DNA of 64,000 nt. Origin: Saccharibacillus sacchari DSM 19268. GTDB taxonomy: Bacteria > Bacillota > Bacilli > Paenibacillales > Paenibacillaceae. Positions within the stretch are counted from its first letter, which is position 1; each line of letters begins with the position of its first letter. Positions 7,906 through 17,633 of this stretch are shown piece by piece. Below the pieces are notes generated by a model, which made no database searches, was not told the DNA's origin, and saw only the letters and a list, made by a program, of their open reading frames with translations. A program made the translations under genes and the position numbers. Location of the stretch: assembly GCF_000585395.1 (NCBI RefSeq), contig NZ_KK073875.1, positions 907,311-971,310 of the forward strand. Direction: 5' to 3'.

Positions 7906-9718
7906 GCAGCAGACAGCGGAAACGGCTTCCAGTTCTCCACAGGAACACAAGCCGTCGACTTCCTCCACGTTAAAGCTGCTGCTTGGTTATGCCAAACCGC
8001 ACCGGATGGCGTTTCTCGGCGTCACGGTCTGCGCGCTGCTGGGCATATCGGCGGAACTGCTTCAGCCGCTGATCGTCCAGATCGCGATCGACGACCATCT
8101 GGCCAAAGGCGAAGGCGGAAGCTCGCTGCTCCGGCTCGGCCTGATCTATCTGGGCATTGCCGTGATTAGCTTCTTGTTTACCTATTTACAAAACAATCTG
8201 CTGCAATACGCGGGACAAAGCATTATCGCCCGGATTCGCAAAGACCTGTTCGGGCATATTTCGAAAATGTCGATGTCGTTTTTCGATCGGACGCACAGCG
8301 GCAGTCTCGTGACCAACGTCTCCAACGACACCGAAACGATCAGCCAATTTTTCACCCAAGTGCTGCTGAGTCTGGTGCGCGACGGCATGATGCTGGTGCT
8401 CATCCTTGTTCTGATGTTCAGCCTCGACCCGCAGTTGGCGATGTTCTCGATGCTGATTCTTCCTGTCATTTTCATCGTCGCGGCCTTTTTCCGTTCTTAC
8501 TTGCGCAATACGTATCAGCAGGCGCGCAGCCGATTGTCCCGCCTGATCGCTTTTACCGCAGAAAATCTGTCCGGCATGGGCTTGATTCAGTCTTTCCGTC
8601 AGGAAGAAGAACAATTAGGGCGCTTCACCGAGCAGAACCGCAACTACTGGAACGCCAATCTGCGGCAAATTCGTTCCAACGTGCTGTTTAACCGTACCTT
8701 CGATATTCTGGGCAATGCCGCGCTCGTGCTGATGGTCTGGCTCGGCGGACGCGCGGTGCTCGGGCAAAGCATGGAAGTCGGCGTGCTGTACGCGTTCGTC
8801 AGCTATATCCGCCAATTTTTCCAGCCGATCAACCAGATCACCATGCAGTGGAACACGTTCCAATCGACGACGGTCGCCGTTGAGCGCATTCAGCGGGTGT
8901 TGGAGACCGAACCGGACGTAAGCGAGCCTGGACAAAAAGAACAAATCCGACTCCGGTCCTCTTCTCTGCGCGGCGAAGTGAATTTCAACAATGTGACATT
9001 CGGTTATCGCGCAGATCGTCCCGTGCTGAAAAATCTCAACCTGCATATCCAGCCCGGCGAAATGATCGGCGTCGTCGGAACGACAGGAGCCGGCAAAAGC
9101 ACGCTGATTAGCCTGTTGAACCGCTTTTACGACGTGGATACCGGCACAGTGGAAATCGACGGCGTCGATATTCGAAAAGTGACGCAAAACGATCTGCACG
9201 CGGCCGTAGGATTGATTCAGCAAGATCCTTATCTGTTCGCCGGCTCGATCATCGAGAATGTCCGCCTGTTCCGCGACGACATCACGCGGGAGCAGGTGAT
9301 CGAAGCGTGTCGTTTCGTAGGCGCCCATCCGATGATTCTTCGTTTGCCGAACGGTTACGATACGCATTTGTCCGAACGGGGCAGCGGATTGTCGGCCGGG
9401 GAACGGCAGTTGATCTCCTTCGCCCGCATCGTCGTATTCCGGCCGAAAATTCTGATTCTCGACGAAGCGACCGCCAACCTCGATTCGGAAACGGAGAAGC
9501 TTGTCCAACAAGCCCTCTCTTCCGTCGCTCAAGGCCGAACCACGATCGTGATCGCCCATCGTCTATCGACGATCATGCATGCCGACCGTATTTTGGTCAT
9601 GCAGGACGGCGAATTGACGGAACAAGGCACGCATGCCCAACTGCTGGCGCGCGGCGGCCATTATGCGGAGCTGTACCGACACGCAAGACAATCGGGACGC
9701 GAGCAATTGCCCGGTTGA
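7889..9718 (+). CDS. BmrD-like ABC exporter, fused membrane and ATPase domains
   Basis: This 609-residue partner has six membrane spans followed by an ATPase with Walker A GTTGAGKST, Q-loop, signature LSAGERQLIS and Walker B ILILDEATANLD, which keeps the catalytic Glu. It thus supplies the active site complementing the degenerate one in the preceding subunit, as in BmrCD/YheHI-type heterodimeric multidrug exporters. The ATG at 7889 is 10 bases after GAGGAGGGA inside the end of the upstream gene. An N-terminal Ser/Thr/Gln-rich tail of about 30 residues precedes the first span. The substrate is not evident; no drug-specific regulator sits nearby apart from the possible leader ORF. Confidence 0.9.
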   Translation: MTNLNKQQTAETASSSPQEHKPSTSSTLKLLLGYAKPHRMAFLGVTVCALLGISAELLQPLIVQIAIDDHLAKGEGGSSLLRLGLIYLGIAVISFLFTYLQNNLLQYAGQSIIARIRKDLFGHISKMSMSFFDRTHSGSLVTNVSNDTETISQFFTQVLLSLVRDGMMLVLILVLMFSLDPQLAMFSMLILPVIFIVAAFFRSYLRNTYQQARSRLSRLIAFTAENLSGMGLIQSFRQEEEQLGRFTEQNRNYWNANLRQIRSNVLFNRTFDILGNAALVLMVWLGGRAVLGQSMEVGVLYAFVSYIRQFFQPINQITMQWNTFQSTTVAVERIQRVLETEPDVSEPGQKEQIRLRSSSLRGEVNFNNVTFGYRADRPVLKNLNLHIQPGEMIGVVGTTGAGKSTLISLLNRFYDVDTGTVEIDGVDIRKVTQNDLHAAVGLIQQDPYLFAGSIIENVRLFRDDITREQVIEACRFVGAHPMILRLPNGYDTHLSERGSGLSAGERQLISFARIVVFRPKILILDEATANLDSETEKLVQQALSSVAQGRTTIVIAHRLSTIMHADRILVMQDGELTEQGTHAQLLARGGHYAELYRHARQSGREQLPG

Positions 9719-9842: not shown

Positions 9843-12737
9843 CTAATCTGCGATTCGGCCCGAAACATCCAACAATACTTTCATTCGCTCTACGACCAAA
9901 TTCATATCAAGCGGTTTGGTCAGGTAATCGGAAGCTCCCGCGTTCAGGCATTTATCCCGATCCTCCTTCATTGCTTTTGCAGTGAGGGCCAAAATGGGGA
10001 TGTGCGCAAGTTCCGGTTCCAAACGAATACGGCGCATCGTTTCGAACCCGTCCAACTCCGGCATCATAATGTCCATGAAGATCATGTCGAACGGTCCTTC
10101 CGCGTTCAACTTATCCAACGCGTCCAACCCCGTCAAAGCGACGATAATCTCCACGCCGTGCTTCTCCAACATACTCGTCAACGCATAAACATTACGAATA
10201 TCGTCGTCCACGATCATCATCCGCATGCCTTCAAACGGCATTTCCGGCTCATGCAGAGTCGGCGGGAATAACATCCCGCCCGCATACGAACCCCCGCCTT
10301 CTCCTCCTGCGGAATCCGGTACGATTCGAATAAATCGTTGGGAATCGGGAGTCGATAATTCGATAGGAGCTTCCTTTTCTTCTTGGGCGGTTACCGCCGA
10401 CTCGGCTTCCTCCGGCAACAACGCTTCTTTCAGGGATGCGCTGCTTGACCAGGATCGGCGAGCGTTCAACGGCAGGAACAAGTCCGCCAACTCCCCGTCA
10501 TCCTTGACGCATGGAACGTACAGACAGAATGTGCTGCCTGCACCGTAACGGCTATCGAGCGTAATTTCACCGCCCAGCAAGGCCGCCAACTGTGTCGAGA
10601 TCGACAAGCCGAGACCCGTACCGCCATATTTGCGGGCAATCGTTCCGTCCGCTTGTTGGAAAGCCTGGAAGATTAACTGACGATTCTCCTCGCTGATGCC
10701 AATCCCCGTATCGCTCACGCTGAACGCCAACTGGTCGTACGCCGCGCCTTCCGGATTCACCCGTTTGCCCGGTACGCGGCCGATTCGAAGCACCACTTCC
10801 CCGCGTTCCGTAAACTTGAAAGCATTCGAGAGCAAATTGCGCAGAATCTGTTGAAGCCGCAGTTCATCCGTGAAAATGTAACCCGGCACATTTTCTTCGA
10901 CCTCGATTCGGAAATCAAGCTGTTTGCGGATCGCGATTTCGGCAAAGTAACGATCCATATCGGAAGCTACTTTTGCCAGATCTACGGCAGCAACCTCAAT
11001 CTGCATTTTGCCGGCTTCGACTTTGGACAGATCAAGAATGTCATTAATCAGATTGAGCAGATCCTTACCGGACTCGTGAATACTGGAAGCATACTCCTCT
11101 TCTTTCGCCGTTAACGTTCGATTCTCGTTTTCGGCAAGGATCTGCGAAAGAATCAACATGCTGTTAAGCGGCGTGCGCAGCTCATGCGACATATTGGCCA
11201 AGAATTCCGATTTGTATTTAGAGCTGATCTGCAATTCTTGCGCATACTTCTCCGTCTCTTCCACCGCGATTTCGGCTGCGTGCTTCTGTTCGCTGAGCTG
11301 TTCGTTGATACTTTCCAACTCGTCGCGCTGCGTCATCAGCTCCTGCGATTGCACCTGAAGTTCTTCCGATTGCACTTGAAGTTCTTCGGATTGAGCTTGG
11401 AGTTCTTCATTGAGCGACTGCGATTCCCGGTACAGACGTTCGATCTCCTGCCTTGCTTCCACCGTCTGAAGCGTACTGCCGAGCAGTTCGGCTTTTCGCT
11501 GCAAGCGTTCCACCTCGCCTGCTTCGAAAGCTTTCGGCGACGCCCATTCGATAACGGCTTTCACCCGGCCTCCGTACATTACCGGAATCAGCAGCACTTC
11601 GGCCGACGACGCAGAACCAAGCGCGGAAGAGATTTTGACATAGTCCGCAGGCACATCCTTCAGATGCAGTATTTTTCCTTCAAGAGCGCAGCGCCCGATC
11701 AAGCCTTCGCCGAATCGAATATCGACCGATTCGGTTCGTGCCGCATGCTCGGCGTCTTCGGCCAGAGCCGCGATTTTCGACAGCGTCTTGCGTTCGGGGT
11801 CCACCACGTAGAAAATACCGACCGGAATTTCCGTCGTCTCGGACACTTTCGACAAGAACGCGTCGGCAAGCTCGGAACTTGAACCGGAAGACTTCTCCTG
11901 AAGCAATTCCGCCAGGCGAATCAGACGTTCTTTATGCCGATCTTCGGCCTCGATCTTCGCGAGCAGAAGATTGGTCGAATCGCCCAGGTCGCCGACTTCG
12001 TCTTGGGAACGAACATCGATCCGTTCGCGCAAATCGCCGCCGACGGTGATCGAACGAATCGCGTCCGTCACTCGGGAAATCGTTTTTGAAATATTGCCTG
12101 CAATGGCGAGCGCCGCCACGATGGACACGATCCCGACCAAGGCCCACAGTCCGATCATCGCATAGATCATCCGATCGCTGTTCGCTTTCAGCTCGGCTAC
12201 TCTCGCATCGGTCAACCGCTGCTCGGTATCGCGAAACGCATCGAATTGAACGCGCAGCTGATCCATCTCCCGCTTGCCCGCGTCGCCCGTGTAGTAAGCC
12301 AATACGTCAGCTTCCTTGCCTTCGGTTTTGAGTTCGATCGTGCGGTCGCCCATCTCCGCAATCCAGCTCTCGATATTGGAACGGATAAGCCCGAGGCTCT
12401 GCTGCTGGGACGCATTGTCGCCGACCAGCTCGTACAACCGGCTGTAGGTCGTCTCCCACTCGGTGCGTCCGCTCGTGTAAGGCTGCAGATAATCGCGGTC
12501 TCCGGTCAGCAGATACCCCCGCTGACCGGTCTCCATGTCCAGCACGTTTTTTTGCAGCGCGCTCAGTTCGTCATGCACCGCAATATCATGATCGCTGATA
12601 AACGCATTGGCTTCCTGAAGACTGCGCACTTGTGCGGATACCGCGAGCAGCGATAATCCCAAGCAGACCAAAATAAACAAATATCCGGCCAGTATTTTCG
12701 CGCGAATGTTAAAACGTCTTTTTTTCGGCACTTCCAT
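9843..12737 (-). CDS. CHASE3-HAMP-GAF hybrid histidine kinase with receiver
   Basis: This 964-residue membrane sensor has, in order, a first membrane span (about residues 12-35), an extracellular CHASE3 domain with the ETGQRGYLLTGD signature, a second span (about 190-212), HAMP, a GAF domain, a Gln/Glu heptad linker (EELQAQSEELQVQSEELQ), a HisKA domain with the phosphoacceptor His near residue 518 in MSHELRTPLNS, an HATPase with DTGIGI and GTGLGLSI, and a C-terminal receiver with its Asp in IFMDIMMPELDG. It should autophosphorylate and pass phosphate to its own receiver and then to an unseen phosphotransfer protein. The frame opens upstream at a GTG (12794) that overlaps the preceding gene; the ATG at 12737 after GCGGAGG is preferred although its spacing is short. 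Confidence 0.9.
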   Translation of the reverse strand: MEVPKKRRFNIRAKILAGYLFILVCLGLSLLAVSAQVRSLQEANAFISDHDIAVHDELSALQKNVLDMETGQRGYLLTGDRDYLQPYTSGRTEWETTYSRLYELVGDNASQQQSLGLIRSNIESWIAEMGDRTIELKTEGKEADVLAYYTGDAGKREMDQLRVQFDAFRDTEQRLTDARVAELKANSDRMIYAMIGLWALVGIVSIVAALAIAGNISKTISRVTDAIRSITVGGDLRERIDVRSQDEVGDLGDSTNLLLAKIEAEDRHKERLIRLAELLQEKSSGSSSELADAFLSKVSETTEIPVGIFYVVDPERKTLSKIAALAEDAEHAARTESVDIRFGEGLIGRCALEGKILHLKDVPADYVKISSALGSASSAEVLLIPVMYGGRVKAVIEWASPKAFEAGEVERLQRKAELLGSTLQTVEARQEIERLYRESQSLNEELQAQSEELQVQSEELQVQSQELMTQRDELESINEQLSEQKHAAEIAVEETEKYAQELQISSKYKSEFLANMSHELRTPLNSMLILSQILAENENRTLTAKEEEYASSIHESGKDLLNLINDILDLSKVEAGKMQIEVAAVDLAKVASDMDRYFAEIAIRKQLDFRIEVEENVPGYIFTDELRLQQILRNLLSNAFKFTERGEVVLRIGRVPGKRVNPEGAAYDQLAFSVSDTGIGISEENRQLIFQAFQQADGTIARKYGGTGLGLSISTQLAALLGGEITLDSRYGAGSTFCLYVPCVKDDGELADLFLPLNARRSWSSSASLKEALLPEEAESAVTAQEEKEAPIELSTPDSQRFIRIVPDSAGGEGGGSYAGGMLFPPTLHEPEMPFEGMRMMIVDDDIRNVYALTSMLEKHGVEIIVALTGLDALDKLNAEGPFDMIFMDIMMPELDGFETMRRIRLEPELAHIPILALTAKAMKEDRDKCLNAGASDYLTKPLDMNLVVERMKVLLDVSGRIAD

Positions 12738-12756
12738 GCCCTCCGCTTCGCTCAGT

Positions 12757-13068
12757 TTACTCTTCGATGTTTGGCGGATCGAGCCGCCGCGCACGCTGTT
12801 CGAACAACTGGTTTTCCAGCATTTCCATACGCTTGCGTTCCCAATCCGCTCTTTGCTCGGCGAATCGTTCGGATGTCTCGTCTTCGCGGATCGTCCAGAG
12901 GTCGCTCAGCAGATACCCTTCCACCTTCACAAGACGATCCGCATAAGGCCCAGTTATCCAAGCCAAACCTTCCGGAAGCAGCCTGACCCGCCGGTGCCCG
13001 TCAGCCGCTTCCGCTAATTGTCCGAGCTTGATCGCGTTCAGCATCTGACCAAACGTATACCAGTTCAT
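12757..13068 (-). CDS. Hypothetical protein, 103 aa, between cupin and kinase
   Basis: I do not recognise this small soluble protein. It has no signal peptide or membrane segment; its N-terminal half is mixed (pattern NWYTFGQMLNAIKLGQ, LLPEGLAWI) and its C-terminal half is a charged helix rich in Glu and Arg. It starts one base after the stop of the cupin gene and ends 19 bases before the kinase start, so the three genes look like one operon with coupled translation. A weak ribosome binding site fits coupling. A TTG at 13083 inside the cupin gene is an alternative start. Confidence 0.65.
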   Translation of the reverse strand: MNWYTFGQMLNAIKLGQLAEAADGHRRVRLLPEGLAWITGPYADRLVKVEGYLLSDLWTIREDETSERFAEQRADWERKRMEMLENQLFEQRARRLDPPNIEE

Positions 13069-13734: not shown

Positions 13735-14658
13735 ATGCAACTATCCGTCGAAACAAGGCGCGAAATGCAGCGCGCATTCGAAGCCTGCCGGGAGACGATC
13801 GGAGGCTTCCCGCAGCCCTTCGCTCAGCTCGGCATTCGTTACTTGGATCGATTCGATCCAGGACTCGGAAACGGCCCCACCAATTATATCTGCTGCCTGC
13901 TCCCCTATTGGCTGCGCGAGGCGGCAGGAGCCACGCTTGAACACTGTCGGGAAATCGCCGAAGCTAACATCTTCGGTATGCTGCATTTCCATCTTCAGGA
14001 CGAACGAATGGATCGTCAGTCCGGTCTGGATCGCCCTCACATCGCACTGTCCCAACTACTAAACGCAGAGATGACCGTTCGATATGCCGCGCTGTTCCGC
14101 TCCGCGAGCCTCTTCCGCGAAGCGCTGGTCTCTTGCACGGGCGAATGGGCAGCAGGACTTGCCGCCGAGCGAAATACCGATCCCTTTTACGAACATCCGC
14201 CCGATATTGCAGCCCGATCCGCTCCGCTACTGCTATGCCCGTTAGCCTTATTCTCTGATCATGAAGCTTTGCAGACGCGTGCGCTGCATGCGGTTCGCGA
14301 GACCCTCATCACCCTCCAAATGGCCGACGATTGGGCAGACTACACAGACGATCTACAGGACGGCTCCTACAACTGCCTCGTCTCGCTCTATCGCAAAGAA
14401 TACGCAAACACAATCGAAACCCCGATCTCCCCCCGTGATATTGAAGCTGCCGTTTATGAAAAAGGCATGCTTGGACGCTATGCGGAATTTTCGGCTGACA
14501 GACAAGCTGAACTCGAGGACTACCGTGCAGACTTCCCTGGCTTGATCGGATTTCATGCTGCTCTGGCAGGTGATCTGGAGCGCATCGCAGCCCGGATCGA
14601 AGAAGAAAAGCAAAGGCTGTCACTGGGCGGACTGAACTATTGGCTCCTCGGTCAATAG
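13735..14658 (+). CDS. Class I isoprenoid-synthase-like enzyme
   Basis: This 307-residue, mostly alpha-helical protein has two Asp-rich motifs at the spacing of class I isoprenoid synthases: DERMD at residues 89-93, and at 198-213 a second motif with Asp198-Asp199, Asp202, Asp205-Asp206 and Asp209 ending in GSYN. These would bind magnesium and a prenyl diphosphate. It has no membrane segment or signal peptide. Enzymes of this fold make or cyclise terpenes or transfer prenyl groups; ComQ, which prenylates ComX, belongs to the same superfamily. The ATG follows AAGGAG at good spacing. It is followed on the same strand by the NHLP-leader peptide gene. The substrate is unknown; assignment to the superfamily rests on motifs and helix content. 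Confidence 0.7.
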   Translation: MQLSVETRREMQRAFEACRETIGGFPQPFAQLGIRYLDRFDPGLGNGPTNYICCLLPYWLREAAGATLEHCREIAEANIFGMLHFHLQDERMDRQSGLDRPHIALSQLLNAEMTVRYAALFRSASLFREALVSCTGEWAAGLAAERNTDPFYEHPPDIAARSAPLLLCPLALFSDHEALQTRALHAVRETLITLQMADDWADYTDDLQDGSYNCLVSLYRKEYANTIETPISPRDIEAAVYEKGMLGRYAEFSADRQAELEDYRADFPGLIGFHAALAGDLERIAARIEEEKQRLSLGGLNYWLLGQ

Positions 14659-14696
14659 CATTCTTTTCTCCTCTTTTCAAAACGTTGCTTTCCCGC

Positions 14697-14725
14697 TTGC
14701 TATCTCCTTTTATCCGTGTTATGAT
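14697..14725 (+). promoter_or_regulatory. SigA-type promoter of the NHLP peptide gene
   Basis: TTGCTA and TATGAT are separated by 17 bases. It would give the peptide gene its own transcript with an untranslated leader of about 125 bases, which contains a TCGATCG/CGATCGA dyad at about 14755-14785. Confidence 0.5.
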
Positions 14726-14855
14726 TTTCCATAAAAACAAAACCTTCTCAGTTCGATCGCGATTCCATGAATTTTCGATCGACCTCGGATGGACCCAACG
14801 TCACTTGTCCTCCTGTTCAACAATCATGAATTCGCACGCGAAAGGATGATGTTCA

Positions 14856-15128
14856 ATGGCACACCTGACAACGGAAACTTTGATCAAAACCCAAGTGATT
14901 CAAAAAGCATGGGAAGATCCCGAATTCCGGGCCCGTCTGCTGGCCGATCCGAAGAACGCTCTGCGCGACGCTTTCGGCATCGAACTGCCTGACCATATTA
15001 ACTTGACTGCGGTTGAAGAGTCGGCGAACGACTTCTATCTGGTCATCCCTCCGAACCCTTCCGACATTATTCCGAAAGCCGAGCGAATCACCATTGAGCC
15101 GGCAGCCATGTGGGGAACAGGCGGCTAA
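14856..15128 (+). CDS. NHLP-leader (nitrile hydratase-like) RiPP precursor-like peptide
   Basis: This 90-residue peptide resembles the NHLP leader family throughout residues 4-70: an N-terminal helix with AWEDPEFRARLLADP, then ALRDAFGIELPDHINL, then the DFYLVIPPNPSD end of the leader. In known cases such leaders, derived from the nitrile hydratase alpha chain, guide modification of a C-terminal core peptide. Here only about 20 residues follow (from residue 71), ending MWGTGG, with a single Trp at 86 and no Cys, so lanthionine or cyclodehydration chemistry on cysteine is ruled out; Ser is also absent and Thr is present twice. The ATG follows AAAGGATG. No YcaO, radical SAM or LanM gene is in the window; the only enzyme candidate is the isoprenoid-synthase-like neighbour. 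Confidence 0.8.
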   Translation: MAHLTTETLIKTQVIQKAWEDPEFRARLLADPKNALRDAFGIELPDHINLTAVEESANDFYLVIPPNPSDIIPKAERITIEPAAMWGTGG

Positions 15129-15199
15129 ATCGCAACGACACGCATCCATCCTATTCACCTAACAAAAGCAAGGAGCGGGACCTCCGCGACCTCGATCTG

Positions 15200-15228
15200 C
15201 CGGAAGCCTCTTACTCAGAGGCTTCCGG
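15200..15228. terminator. Hairpin between convergent peptide and kinase genes
   Basis: An 11-base perfect stem (CCGGAAGCCTC and GAGGCTTCCGG) with a 7-base loop covers the last codons and the stop of the minus-strand kinase gene. It lacks a T-run on either side, so it may act as a transcript-end stabiliser or a weak bidirectional terminator. Confidence 0.55.
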
Positions 15229-17115
15229 TAAACGAATGGTTGCTTCGGTTCCCGCTCCTTTTTCGCTGCTGAATCTTAATGTTCCCTGCATCGCCTCGAT
15301 GATCCGGAAGGTGACCATAAGCCCAAGGCCTGTTCCTTTTGTCTTATTGGAGAAATAAGGTTCGCCGAGCCGCTTCAACTCCTCCGGTCCCATGCCTACC
15401 CCGTCGTCGCGGATGCGGATCACGATCTCGCCGTTTTCTTTGGCTGCCGTGATCGTAATCTGACCTTCGTCCTGAAACGCCTCGATGCTGTTTTTGATCA
15501 TATTGATTAATGCCTGTTTGAACTTGGACGAATTGCCTTTGACATAAAGATCGGGAGCAATGTCCAGAACCATTTTTCCGTGATGGATGCTGGCCAGCGG
15601 CGTCAATACCCCTTCGATATGACGGAATTCTTCGGCAATCGACAAGGTTTTTATATTTTCCGCACCCGGCTTGGCAAAGGTCAGAAAATCGGTAATGATT
15701 CCCGAAGCCCGATCCAGTTCGTCCAGCGCCATATCGATGTACGCTTTGTCCGACGAAGCCGAGCGCTCGCCCAGCAGCTGCAAAAACCCGCGGGTCACTT
15801 GAAGCGGATTGCGTACCTCATGGGCAACCGATGCCGCCAGTTCGCTGATAATCTCCATTTTCTCCGCGTGTTGCAGTTCATTATTAAACATTTCGAGTTC
15901 CTTCGAATATTGGAGCACCTGGTTGTGCGTCTCGGCAAAGCGTCGACCCAAGACCACGATTAGCGAAATAACGAAGACGACCATGCCCCATTTCCACCAG
16001 TATAGATCATATTGCTCTTCGGTCGCATAGTAGCGGAACAATTCGAACACTCCGACTCCCGCAAAAACAGCCAAGCCCGCGTTGAAAATCCAGGCATCTT
16101 TGTTTTTTTGCAGGCTGTATACCACCGAACCGATCAACATCGTCAGCAGTTCCACGATCATCAATCCCCCGAGCACCGTCGTTGTCAGGAGATAATAGAT
16201 GGAGAAAAAGCGCTCGTTCGTCAACACGTTTCCGAATAAAAGAAGCAAACAGAAGAACGAGTAACCCAATTGTAACCGACTTAGATACAAGATAGAGTTT
16301 TTGTATCCTTTTCCGAAGATAAGCTGGAAAAAGTACAGGAAGGAAGGCAGAAGCGCGAAGAGTCCGACATCGAACAACAACTGAAGCATTCGTCCGTATT
16401 CGGGGTAAAGCGTGAATAAGAACGGAGAATACGTCGCGACGAGCAGACCGATCGACAAAATGACGAAGCTGAGCGACAGCCAAGCCTGAACATAACTTCG
16501 ATGCAAAAACAGCGCGCAAATCAGCATGACCACCCCGATTAGCACAAAAGAGCCGCCGAGCATGATATCCAGCATGTCCTTGGTCAAGTATACGGTCAGC
16601 AGTTCGTAAAAGCTTCCGAATACGATGTTCTGGACGATTCCCGAACGCTCCTCCGTAAGCTGAAGGCGAATATAGACAGAGCCTCCCGCATCTTCCACGC
16701 GAAGCGGCAGCAGCAGTTCGTTCATCGCGTAACGGTATTGCCGATGCGAATCGAACAGCTCCCGGTATTCGGTATACACCACCACGTTGCGGGCGTGCGC
16801 CTTTTCGATCAACACGGCGGGAATCGGCCATTCGAGATGAGGGATATCGATTCTCACCCAGGCCCAAGCCGCTCCGAGCGGTCTGGACGGCGGCATCGAT
16901 TCCTCGTCCATCGCGATCCAATCCGGCGAATGCAGTACCCGTTCGGGCGGCGTGACGGAGCCTTGCTCCCAACCGCCCGGATCCCATAAAAATTGCCATG
17001 ACCCGACTTCGACCGCTGCCGCTTCGTCTTTTTCGCCGGGGAAAGCTTTTATGCACAAAAAAATAATGATCATAACTCCGATTAGAACGGCTATTGTTTT
17101 CGGTAAAGTTCGCAT
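15211..17115 (-). CDS. 7TM-type sensor histidine kinase
   Basis: This 634-residue kinase starts with one membrane span (about residues 5-22), an extracellular domain of about 150 residues, seven further spans (about 180-395), then HisKA and HATPase domains. The layout matches the 7TMR-DISM class of extracellular-signal receptors. The phosphoacceptor His is near residue 432 in SVAHEVRNPLQVTRGFLQLL, a box also typical of KinB-like sporulation kinases, and the ATPase has GLGLMVTF and DDGVGMG. GGAGG five bases before the ATG at 17115 fixes the start; longer frames lack this. No response regulator gene is adjacent. It is convergent with the NHLP peptide gene. The ligand is unknown. Confidence 0.88.
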   Translation of the reverse strand: MRTLPKTIAVLIGVMIIIFLCIKAFPGEKDEAAAVEVGSWQFLWDPGGWEQGSVTPPERVLHSPDWIAMDEESMPPSRPLGAAWAWVRIDIPHLEWPIPAVLIEKAHARNVVVYTEYRELFDSHRQYRYAMNELLLPLRVEDAGGSVYIRLQLTEERSGIVQNIVFGSFYELLTVYLTKDMLDIMLGGSFVLIGVVMLICALFLHRSYVQAWLSLSFVILSIGLLVATYSPFLFTLYPEYGRMLQLLFDVGLFALLPSFLYFFQLIFGKGYKNSILYLSRLQLGYSFFCLLLLFGNVLTNERFFSIYYLLTTTVLGGLMIVELLTMLIGSVVYSLQKNKDAWIFNAGLAVFAGVGVFELFRYYATEEQYDLYWWKWGMVVFVISLIVVLGRRFAETHNQVLQYSKELEMFNNELQHAEKMEIISELAASVAHEVRNPLQVTRGFLQLLGERSASSDKAYIDMALDELDRASGIITDFLTFAKPGAENIKTLSIAEEFRHIEGVLTPLASIHHGKMVLDIAPDLYVKGNSSKFKQALINMIKNSIEAFQDEGQITITAAKENGEIVIRIRDDGVGMGPEELKRLGEPYFSNKTKGTGLGLMVTFRIIEAMQGTLRFSSEKGAGTEATIRLPEASE

Positions 17116-17468: not shown

Positions 17469-17633
17469 ATGAATAATTCGCATAGAGACGTGGATGTCGA
17501 AGAACGCAGAATCGAGAAAAAGTCGGACTCGAGCATGGTCGCTTCAACGTTCATCAAGTATGCCGCGTATATCATCATCACGTTCGGCATCTTGTATTTC
17601 CTCGTTCGTTATGTCTTCCCGATGTTCCAATAA
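17469..17633 (+). CDS. Small single-span membrane protein, 54 aa
   Basis: A short ORF follows a very strong AAGGAGGAA ribosome binding site eight bases before its ATG. The product has a charged N terminus (VDVEERRIEKKSDSS) and one C-terminal hydrophobic span (about residues 29-50), ending in a Phe-Pro-Met-Phe-Gln tail. This is the layout of small bacterial membrane peptides, with the N terminus likely inside. I do not recognise the family. It is followed directly by a strong bidirectional terminator, so it is probably a monocistronic gene. Confidence 0.75.
   Translation: MNNSHRDVDVEERRIEKKSDSSMVASTFIKYAAYIIITFGILYFLVRYVFPMFQ

Follow-up and report, generated by a model that had tools for sequence, protein, structure and literature searches.

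The closest described counterpart of the genes considered here is the PalQ/PalX/PalP system of Paenibacillus alvei, reported by Miyata, Ito and Fujinami in 2023 (PMC10853753). In vitro, P. alvei PalQ, which once bore a terpene synthase annotation, attaches the prenyl group at C3 of the terminal tryptophan of the NHLP precursor peptide PalX; the leader enhances this reaction, which requires tryptophan at the very C-terminus, and the role of PalP, the histidine kinase of the locus, lay outside that study's tests (PMC10853753). This report concerns three homologous genes in a 64,000-nucleotide stretch of Saccharibacillus sacchari DSM 19268 (contig NZ_KK073875.1, positions 907,311 to 971,310; hereafter the window) which, judged by homology, are a PalQXP locus and thus a system already known. 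The original prediction from the window, which held the arrangement to be convergent or new and without a described example, is therefore superseded by the P. alvei publication. Two features go beyond that prediction: the four residues that follow the acceptor tryptophan, and a KinB-like kinase core. Neither tailed precursors nor a KinB-like output are discussed in the open-licence literature searched; the supplement of PMC10853753 (homologue sequences and a cluster figure) may show some tails.

The window and P. alvei loci share three genes with the same roles, an NHLP leader on the precursor, a precursor gene downstream of the enzyme gene, and a histidine kinase. They differ in that the tryptophan of the window peptide is not terminal (MWGTGG), and in the enzyme, which lies on a long branch, carries E90 and Y203 where the P. 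alvei type has D and W, and is 35% identical to that type. Homology, catalytic residues, gene order, conservation of the tail and kinase similarity were computed here; that the tryptophan is prenylated, and more so with the leader, is an experimental result from P. alvei only. The ComQXPA system of Bacillus subtilis, which according to a passage of PMC4008528 acts through ComP (domain PF07730) and the regulator ComA, also combines an isoprenoid-synthase-like enzyme, a peptide with a tryptophan near its C-terminus and a membrane kinase. In contrast, the window locus has an NHLP leader rather than ComX, HisKA (PF00512) rather than PF07730, a convergent kinase gene and no adjacent ComA-like regulator; matches to TIGR03793 and PF00512 bear out the earlier assignment of the peptide as NHLP-type and not ComX-type and of the kinase as HisKA-type and not ComP-type. 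The NHLP leader is also a point of likeness to ribosomally synthesised and post-translationally modified peptides (RiPPs) that have an NHLM exporter.

The palQ and palX genes and their distribution

The palQ homologue (13735..14658, + strand) encodes a 307-residue protein predicted to be a class I isoprenoid-synthase-fold peptide tryptophan prenyltransferase, and is separated by 197 bases from the palX homologue (14856..15128, +). The latter encodes a 90-residue precursor with a leader at approximately residues 1–69 and a C-terminal segment at approximately residues 70–90, and scores 63 bits against TIGR03793 (leader_NHLP; cut-off 50.9). The predicted prenyl acceptor, Trp86 (codon at 15111..15113, +), is followed by the four-residue tail Gly-Thr-Gly-Gly (15114..15125, +), a departure from the characterised PalX. 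The palP homologue (15211..17115, − strand; longest open reading frame [ORF] to 17184) is convergent with palX and encodes a membrane histidine kinase with a sensor at approximately residues 1–400 and a KinB-like catalytic core at approximately residues 405–634. ORFs, domain matches and structural models agree that all three genes are real and had been rightly described, including the peptide's NHLP leader and its position on the enzyme's strand.

Window PalQ has no match at E≤1 in Pfam or NCBIfam. Its AlphaFold2 model (pLDDT 90, pTM 0.89) is all-helical with prenyl-diphosphate synthases as the best PDB structure matches (4jyx, 5jfq and 3n3d; E 3e-4 to 9e-4), and a sequence search of the PDB with a PalQ profile gives a polyprenyl synthetase as its best match (E 0.083). 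The DxxxD and DDxxD-like motifs noted earlier are both present, as D89ERMD93 (the first Asp-rich motif, FARM) and D198DWAD202 (the second, SARM), with Gln195 before the SARM. D89, D93, Q195, D198 and D202 correspond to D89, D93, Q197, D200 and D204 of P. alvei PalQ and are unvarying in all 216 PalQ rows aligned (226 distinct PalQ less 10 that lack palX, the tryptophan or sufficient length). The window enzyme shares 93% identity with its S. endophyticus counterpart and 35%, over 299 residues, with the PalQ of genome G258 (locus L212), in which K39, D89, D93, Q197, D200 and D204 all recur exactly as published for P. alvei. The palX of G258 (L212:5888-6271) reads TDNVRRF like the published core, after which the frame runs past the expected tryptophan, through either a frameshift or an assembly error.

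A search of 394 genomes of the same family with window PalQ as query gives matches in 327, and a 20-row PalQ profile adds none among the remaining 67; one weak member of the 327 (G236) was lost among the 80 genomes searched again with the profile. In an order-wide draw PalQ is present in 272 of 392 genomes and 23 of 49 genera. The 251 loci obtained represent 226 distinct PalQ, of which 218 are accompanied by palX and eight are not, four of these eight having flanks of only 1.5 kb. In an earlier set of 195 distinct pairs (two of them doubtful, the first matching weakly and the second truncated at the edge of a contig) palX is downstream of palQ on the same strand in 192. A PalP-like kinase is present in 114 of the 120 loci of at least 8.9 kb, which include duplicate organisms, and is downstream and convergent in 110. 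All three genes are also found in 20 of 20 loci fetched from another family of the order (f6), chosen among the higher-scoring of the 48 genomes that match outside the family; five of these 20 are judged to be already in the first set. The enzyme and peptide are thus very strongly coupled across relatives, the comparison that had been proposed for the pair. Two loci, L041 and L151 (G026), have palQ with neither palX nor a PalP-like kinase nearby, and G026 carries a PalP-like kinase on another contig.

The earlier proposal that the enzyme prenylates the peptide and the kinase senses it is the best explanation of the locus; its first part has the P. alvei precedent in vitro, and its second part is probable. 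From the homology and conserved residues, Trp86 is very probably prenylated by PalQ.

Residues beyond the acceptor tryptophan

The predicted acceptor tryptophan of window PalX is the fifth residue from its end. Of 232 palX peptides, 231 have a tryptophan among their final 12 residues, and the sole exception runs off its contig. No residue follows the last tryptophan in 119 of the 231, and the remaining 112 have between one and six (one in 60, two in 36, three in 3, four in 10, five in 1 and six in 2). Because only 119 of 231 homologues end exactly in tryptophan, the strict C-terminal position is a trait of the characterised member and not of the homologous family. The raw share of tailed peptides nonetheless overstates the number of independent cases, since 23 of the 112 are near-identical peptides of a single clade (CGPWR[STDN], genus g5). 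On the PalQ tree the tailed state requires 15 changes with 180 rows, no fewer than 12 of them forced by well-supported branches, and 14 with 216 rows. Sister lineages can differ in this respect, L187 ending in W and L184 in WI, L097 in W and L096 in WH. Among the f6 peptides, 19 of 20 are Trp-terminal and one ends in WP, which, in an unrooted comparison, suggests that the tail is the derived state. Two or more palX genes are present in 11 of the 226 loci; at one (L124 of G297), five successive palX downstream of palQ differ in their cores and end in WT, WL, WI, WF and WV.

All ten Saccharibacillus genomes of the window type, including the window genome, have four-residue tails (GTGG in four, GTGS in two, and GSGT, GSGV, GNGG and NSPA) and form one fully supported clade; six other genomes of the genus have divergent PalQ and W-terminal peptides. 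In the ten window-type palX genes EPAAMW is constant with synonymous changes in the EPAA codons, and the tail has glycine at +1 and at +3 in nine of ten each, with those codons varying in the third base only. Read by eye, these codons suggest that selection on the coding frame extends across the tail. ComQ modifies a tryptophan that is followed by further residues.

P. alvei PalQ loses activity when alanines are appended after the tryptophan (PMC10853753), and a passage of a 2026 review (PMC13290415) states that added residues inactivate it and that glycines at positions −2 to +2 permit low activity on an internal tryptophan. WGTGG, WGNGG and WGSGT are natural cases of a glycine-flanked tryptophan, and the low activity described in that passage fits the WGTGG tail. 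Position specificity may vary among PalQ homologues, or else the tails may be trimmed before or after the reaction. Acceptance of the internal tryptophan, with the four-residue tail taken as such by window PalQ, is somewhat favoured here, as the tail shows constraint and, of the window proteins scanned, the sole peptidase (M29 family, 1056-2285) is encoded over 11 kb from the locus. Removal of the tail after Trp86 by a cellular carboxypeptidase or endopeptidase, followed by prenylation of the then terminal tryptophan as in P. alvei, is less likely but a substantial alternative: it agrees with the direct biochemistry of P. alvei PalQ, with the variation of tails between close relatives (WGTGG, WGSGT, WNSPA) expected of a discarded end, and with the ease with which tailed and untailed states interchange (14 changes). 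However, besides the distance of the peptidase gene, the glycines at +1 and +3 and the retention of CGPWR[STDN] in the g5 clade exceed what a discarded end needs.

Window PalQ has E90 and Y203 where nearly all relatives with W-terminal peptides have D and W. Position 90 is Asp in 112 of 114 untailed PalQ, 58 of 102 tailed PalQ and none of the ten window-type enzymes; at position 203, 113 of the 114 untailed PalQ have Trp and all ten of the window type have Tyr. With relatedness controlled, position 90 varies with the tail in the same direction in a mean of 3.0 of 12 independent pairs and in the opposite direction in 0.0, which is not significant (sign test, median p 0.25). In a similarly controlled scan of the 135 of 307 window PalQ positions that passed filters, the leading columns are 179 (+3.3) and 90 (+3.0), an equally strong opposite lean is seen at 285 (−3.4), and position 203 is not among the leaders. 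Neither position 90 nor position 203 can on these comparisons be called a determinant of tail acceptance. Lys39, a proposed contact of the C-terminal carboxylate, was rejected as a determinant of terminal specificity, as K or R occupies position 39 in 62 of the 114 enzymes with untailed peptides and 68 of the 102 with tailed ones and does not discriminate between them.

The PalP kinase, its sensor and its output

The model of the first 400 residues of PalP (pLDDT 79.5) has one N-terminal helix, a beta-sandwich domain at residues 35–168 and seven long helices, and Pfam identifies HisKA (PF00512) and HATPase_c in the protein, in agreement with the convergent seven-span histidine kinase originally described. 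The 7TMR-DISM receptors combine an extracellular beta domain with seven transmembrane helices and a kinase. The PalP model shows such an arrangement, yet no DISM Pfam model matches at E≤1, which makes PalP no more than a possible member of this group. A Foldseek search with the sensor places human Wntless in the top four PDB matches (E 2e-5 to 1e-4), followed by beta-sandwich domains of GH2 enzymes. Wntless (WLS) is a carrier of lipidated Wnt, and like the PalP sensor model it sets a beta-sandwich on a multi-helix membrane bundle, although the resemblance may be convergent or a weak match. As Wntless ferries a lipidated protein, a lipid-peptide receptor is an attractive reading of the modelled PalP sensor, albeit from a weak match. 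PalP probably senses the prenylated product.

The best PDB sequence match of PalP is the catalytic core of the sporulation kinase KinB (3d36, 201 bits; next ZraS, 105 bits). When the window genome is searched with the KinB core, PalP reaches 204 bits (50% identity) and the next of 40 matches 116 bits (33%). The H-boxes are also similar (LAASVAHEVRNPLQVTRGFLQLL vs LAASISHEIRNPLTAARGFIQLI), and a regulator gene is rarely adjacent; PalP differs in having a beta-sandwich ectodomain and seven predicted transmembrane helices. Mean identity among 61 sampled PalP kinases falls from 84% in the H-box and 63% in the core to 37% in the transmembrane part and 28% in the ectodomain; a conserved core and a variable ectodomain are to be expected if the output partner is fixed while the ligand changes, a pattern also common for receptors generally. 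A REC-domain ORF, sought with a home-made profile, lies within 1 kb of PalP in only two of 144 loci of at least 10 kb. Saccharibacillus is an endospore former, according to a passage of PMC9867790. In Paenibacillus the phosphorelay is conserved and Spo0B is membrane-bound, and the authors of PMC12826061 suggest a reliance on membrane kinases. Passages of PMC6429003 and PMC7538429 report Kin1377 and Kin1038 as sporulation kinases of P. polymyxa, either of which might conceivably correspond to PalP. Given the kinase similarity, the chances that the sporulation phosphorelay is the output of PalP are about even.

A different output, in which PalP reads the peptide and signals to a dedicated unlinked response regulator in a quorum circuit like that of ComP and ComA, is possible but rather unlikely. 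It has a precedent in ComQXPA, where ComP signals to ComA in B. subtilis (in a passage of PMC4008528), and would suit the retention of PalP outside PalQX in many genomes. However, no REC ORF occurs within 1 kb in 142 of the 144 loci, a count that an unlinked regulator would escape, and the KinB-like core stands well clear of the other kinases matched in the genome.

Two full-length PalP-like kinases are present in 23 of the 149 loci having any (L040, L042, L043, L049, L148, L172, L181, L196–L198, L201, L204, L206, L207, L209, L213, L214, L234, L238, L243 and L245–L247), and in several clades two distinct subfamilies lie beside one palQX. Four Saccharibacillus genomes (G377, G379, G382 and G390) have the kinase approximately 15 kb away from palQ.

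A candidate signalling pathway and its setting

In the pathway proposed here, PalQ would bind the NHLP leader of PalX and transfer a prenyl chain, likely C10–C15, to Trp86, after which the leader would be removed and a short prenylated peptide would exit the cell. PalP would bind this lipidated peptide from outside through its beta-sandwich and seven-helix sensor, and its KinB-type core, having no dedicated response regulator, would feed the Spo0F–Spo0B–Spo0A sporulation phosphorelay. PalQ of this Saccharibacillus clade would have gained the ability to modify a tryptophan with a short glycine-rich tail, as ComQ does, rather than a strictly terminal one. The probability that this reading is right in outline, though not in every step, is put at roughly 0.55.

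Several observations weigh against it. The inactivity of P. alvei PalQ with residues after the tryptophan means that the tailed peptides may not be direct substrates, and, with relatedness taken into account, enzymes of tailed and untailed peptides are not told apart by any PalQ position. No protein of the window genome exceeds the cut-off of the NHLP exporter model TIGR03796, a search in which the 14 control genomes also gave none and so provided no positive control. The Wntless match is weak (TM 0.24–0.40, rmsd >12, 11–13% identity), with uncertain relative placement of the domains. Similarity to KinB is not proof of a Spo0F partner; a REC ORF occurs somewhere in the locus in 16 of the 144 loci, and the window encodes a receiver-domain hybrid kinase approximately 2.4 kb from palP. 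Finally, PalP is present in 35 of the 67 PalQ-less genomes (three through partial matches, and G283 weakly), and neither palX nor palQ is found within flanks of approximately 5–6 kb in any of 20 such PalP loci fetched.

The sensor profile finds PalP in all 13 PalQ-bearing genomes given to it, but strict co-occurrence with PalQ fails as proof of a receptor because PalP occurs also without palQX, and PalP or a paralogue must therefore serve some use without the peptide. A PalP-like kinase is thus of value on its own, perhaps as a sporulation kinase and perhaps in listening to others. On the kinase tree 21 solitary kinases are scattered among linked ones and need eight changes, a count from which gain and loss cannot be told apart. 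Some solitary kinases are nested with PalX-linked ones (L310 and L311 with L159, and L316 with L130), consistent with loss of palQX and retention of the kinase. Twelve of the 21 lie in clades otherwise holding mostly kinases of two-kinase loci, and may therefore be a paralogue and not the reader of PalX.

A mainly antimicrobial prenylated peptide, with PalP as a self-sensing or immunity regulator, is improbable. Antimicrobial peptides prenylated by PalQ gain activity, according to a passage of PMC13290415, and NHLP-type models often name bacteriocin-like precursors; however, in a survey limited to window genes, none of the 11 others looked for occurs in more than 29 of the 120 long loci, and thus a conserved partner for immunity or export is not to be found among the window genes. 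That PalQ is an ordinary terpene synthase with free terpenes as substrates, and the peptide and kinase chance neighbours, would suit the isoprenoid-synthase fold and former annotation of PalQ but is rejected as extremely unlikely on the near-universal coupling of palQ to palX, and is further opposed by the invariant Gln before the SARM, common to tryptophan prenyltransferases according to a passage of PMC13290415, and by the peptide prenylation proven in vitro for a homologue (PMC10853753).

Between the convergent ends of palX and palP, and overlapping the end of palP, is a 12-bp perfect inverted repeat with a 5-nt loop (15200..15228) that is a possible shared terminator. It has no T-run on either side and is absent from the terminator-like sites of the scan; promoter and terminator scans give counts no higher than in shuffled sequences. 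No YcaO, lanthionine-synthesis or radical SAM family is present among 17 scanned neighbour proteins (1056-32842, part of the ORFs of that span), in line with the earlier statement that YcaO, LanM and radical SAM genes are absent nearby, and a PHROGs search gives zero matches. The best TIGR03796 match below the cut-off is an ABC transporter (7955-9676) barely above the others, and none of the matches listed covers the model before position 128. A CHASE3-HAMP-GAF-HisKA-REC hybrid kinase (9843-12794, −) is matched in 15 of the 120 long loci. Upstream of palP, a 54-residue protein with a single hydrophobic stretch (17469-17633, +) has homologues in 28 of these loci and no confident Pfam family (best E 0.07).

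Across the order, a prenylated RiPP pheromone could act through a Wntless-like lipid-binding sensor and a KinB-type core to gate the phosphorelay, with PalQ having repeatedly switched between terminal and internal tryptophan and Saccharibacillus converging on ComX-like chemistry with a glycine tail; in this breadth the proposal is tentative and rather doubtful. If the proposed pathway is right, it would give a widespread and little-explained RiPP family a function in population control of spore formation, and would provide a bacterial receptor for studying the recognition of a lipid-modified peptide. It would also supply natural enzymes that prenylate a non-terminal tryptophan, at which the use of PalQ for lipidation at present meets one of its limits, and tailed and untailed relatives constitute a natural series for finding the determinants of position specificity.

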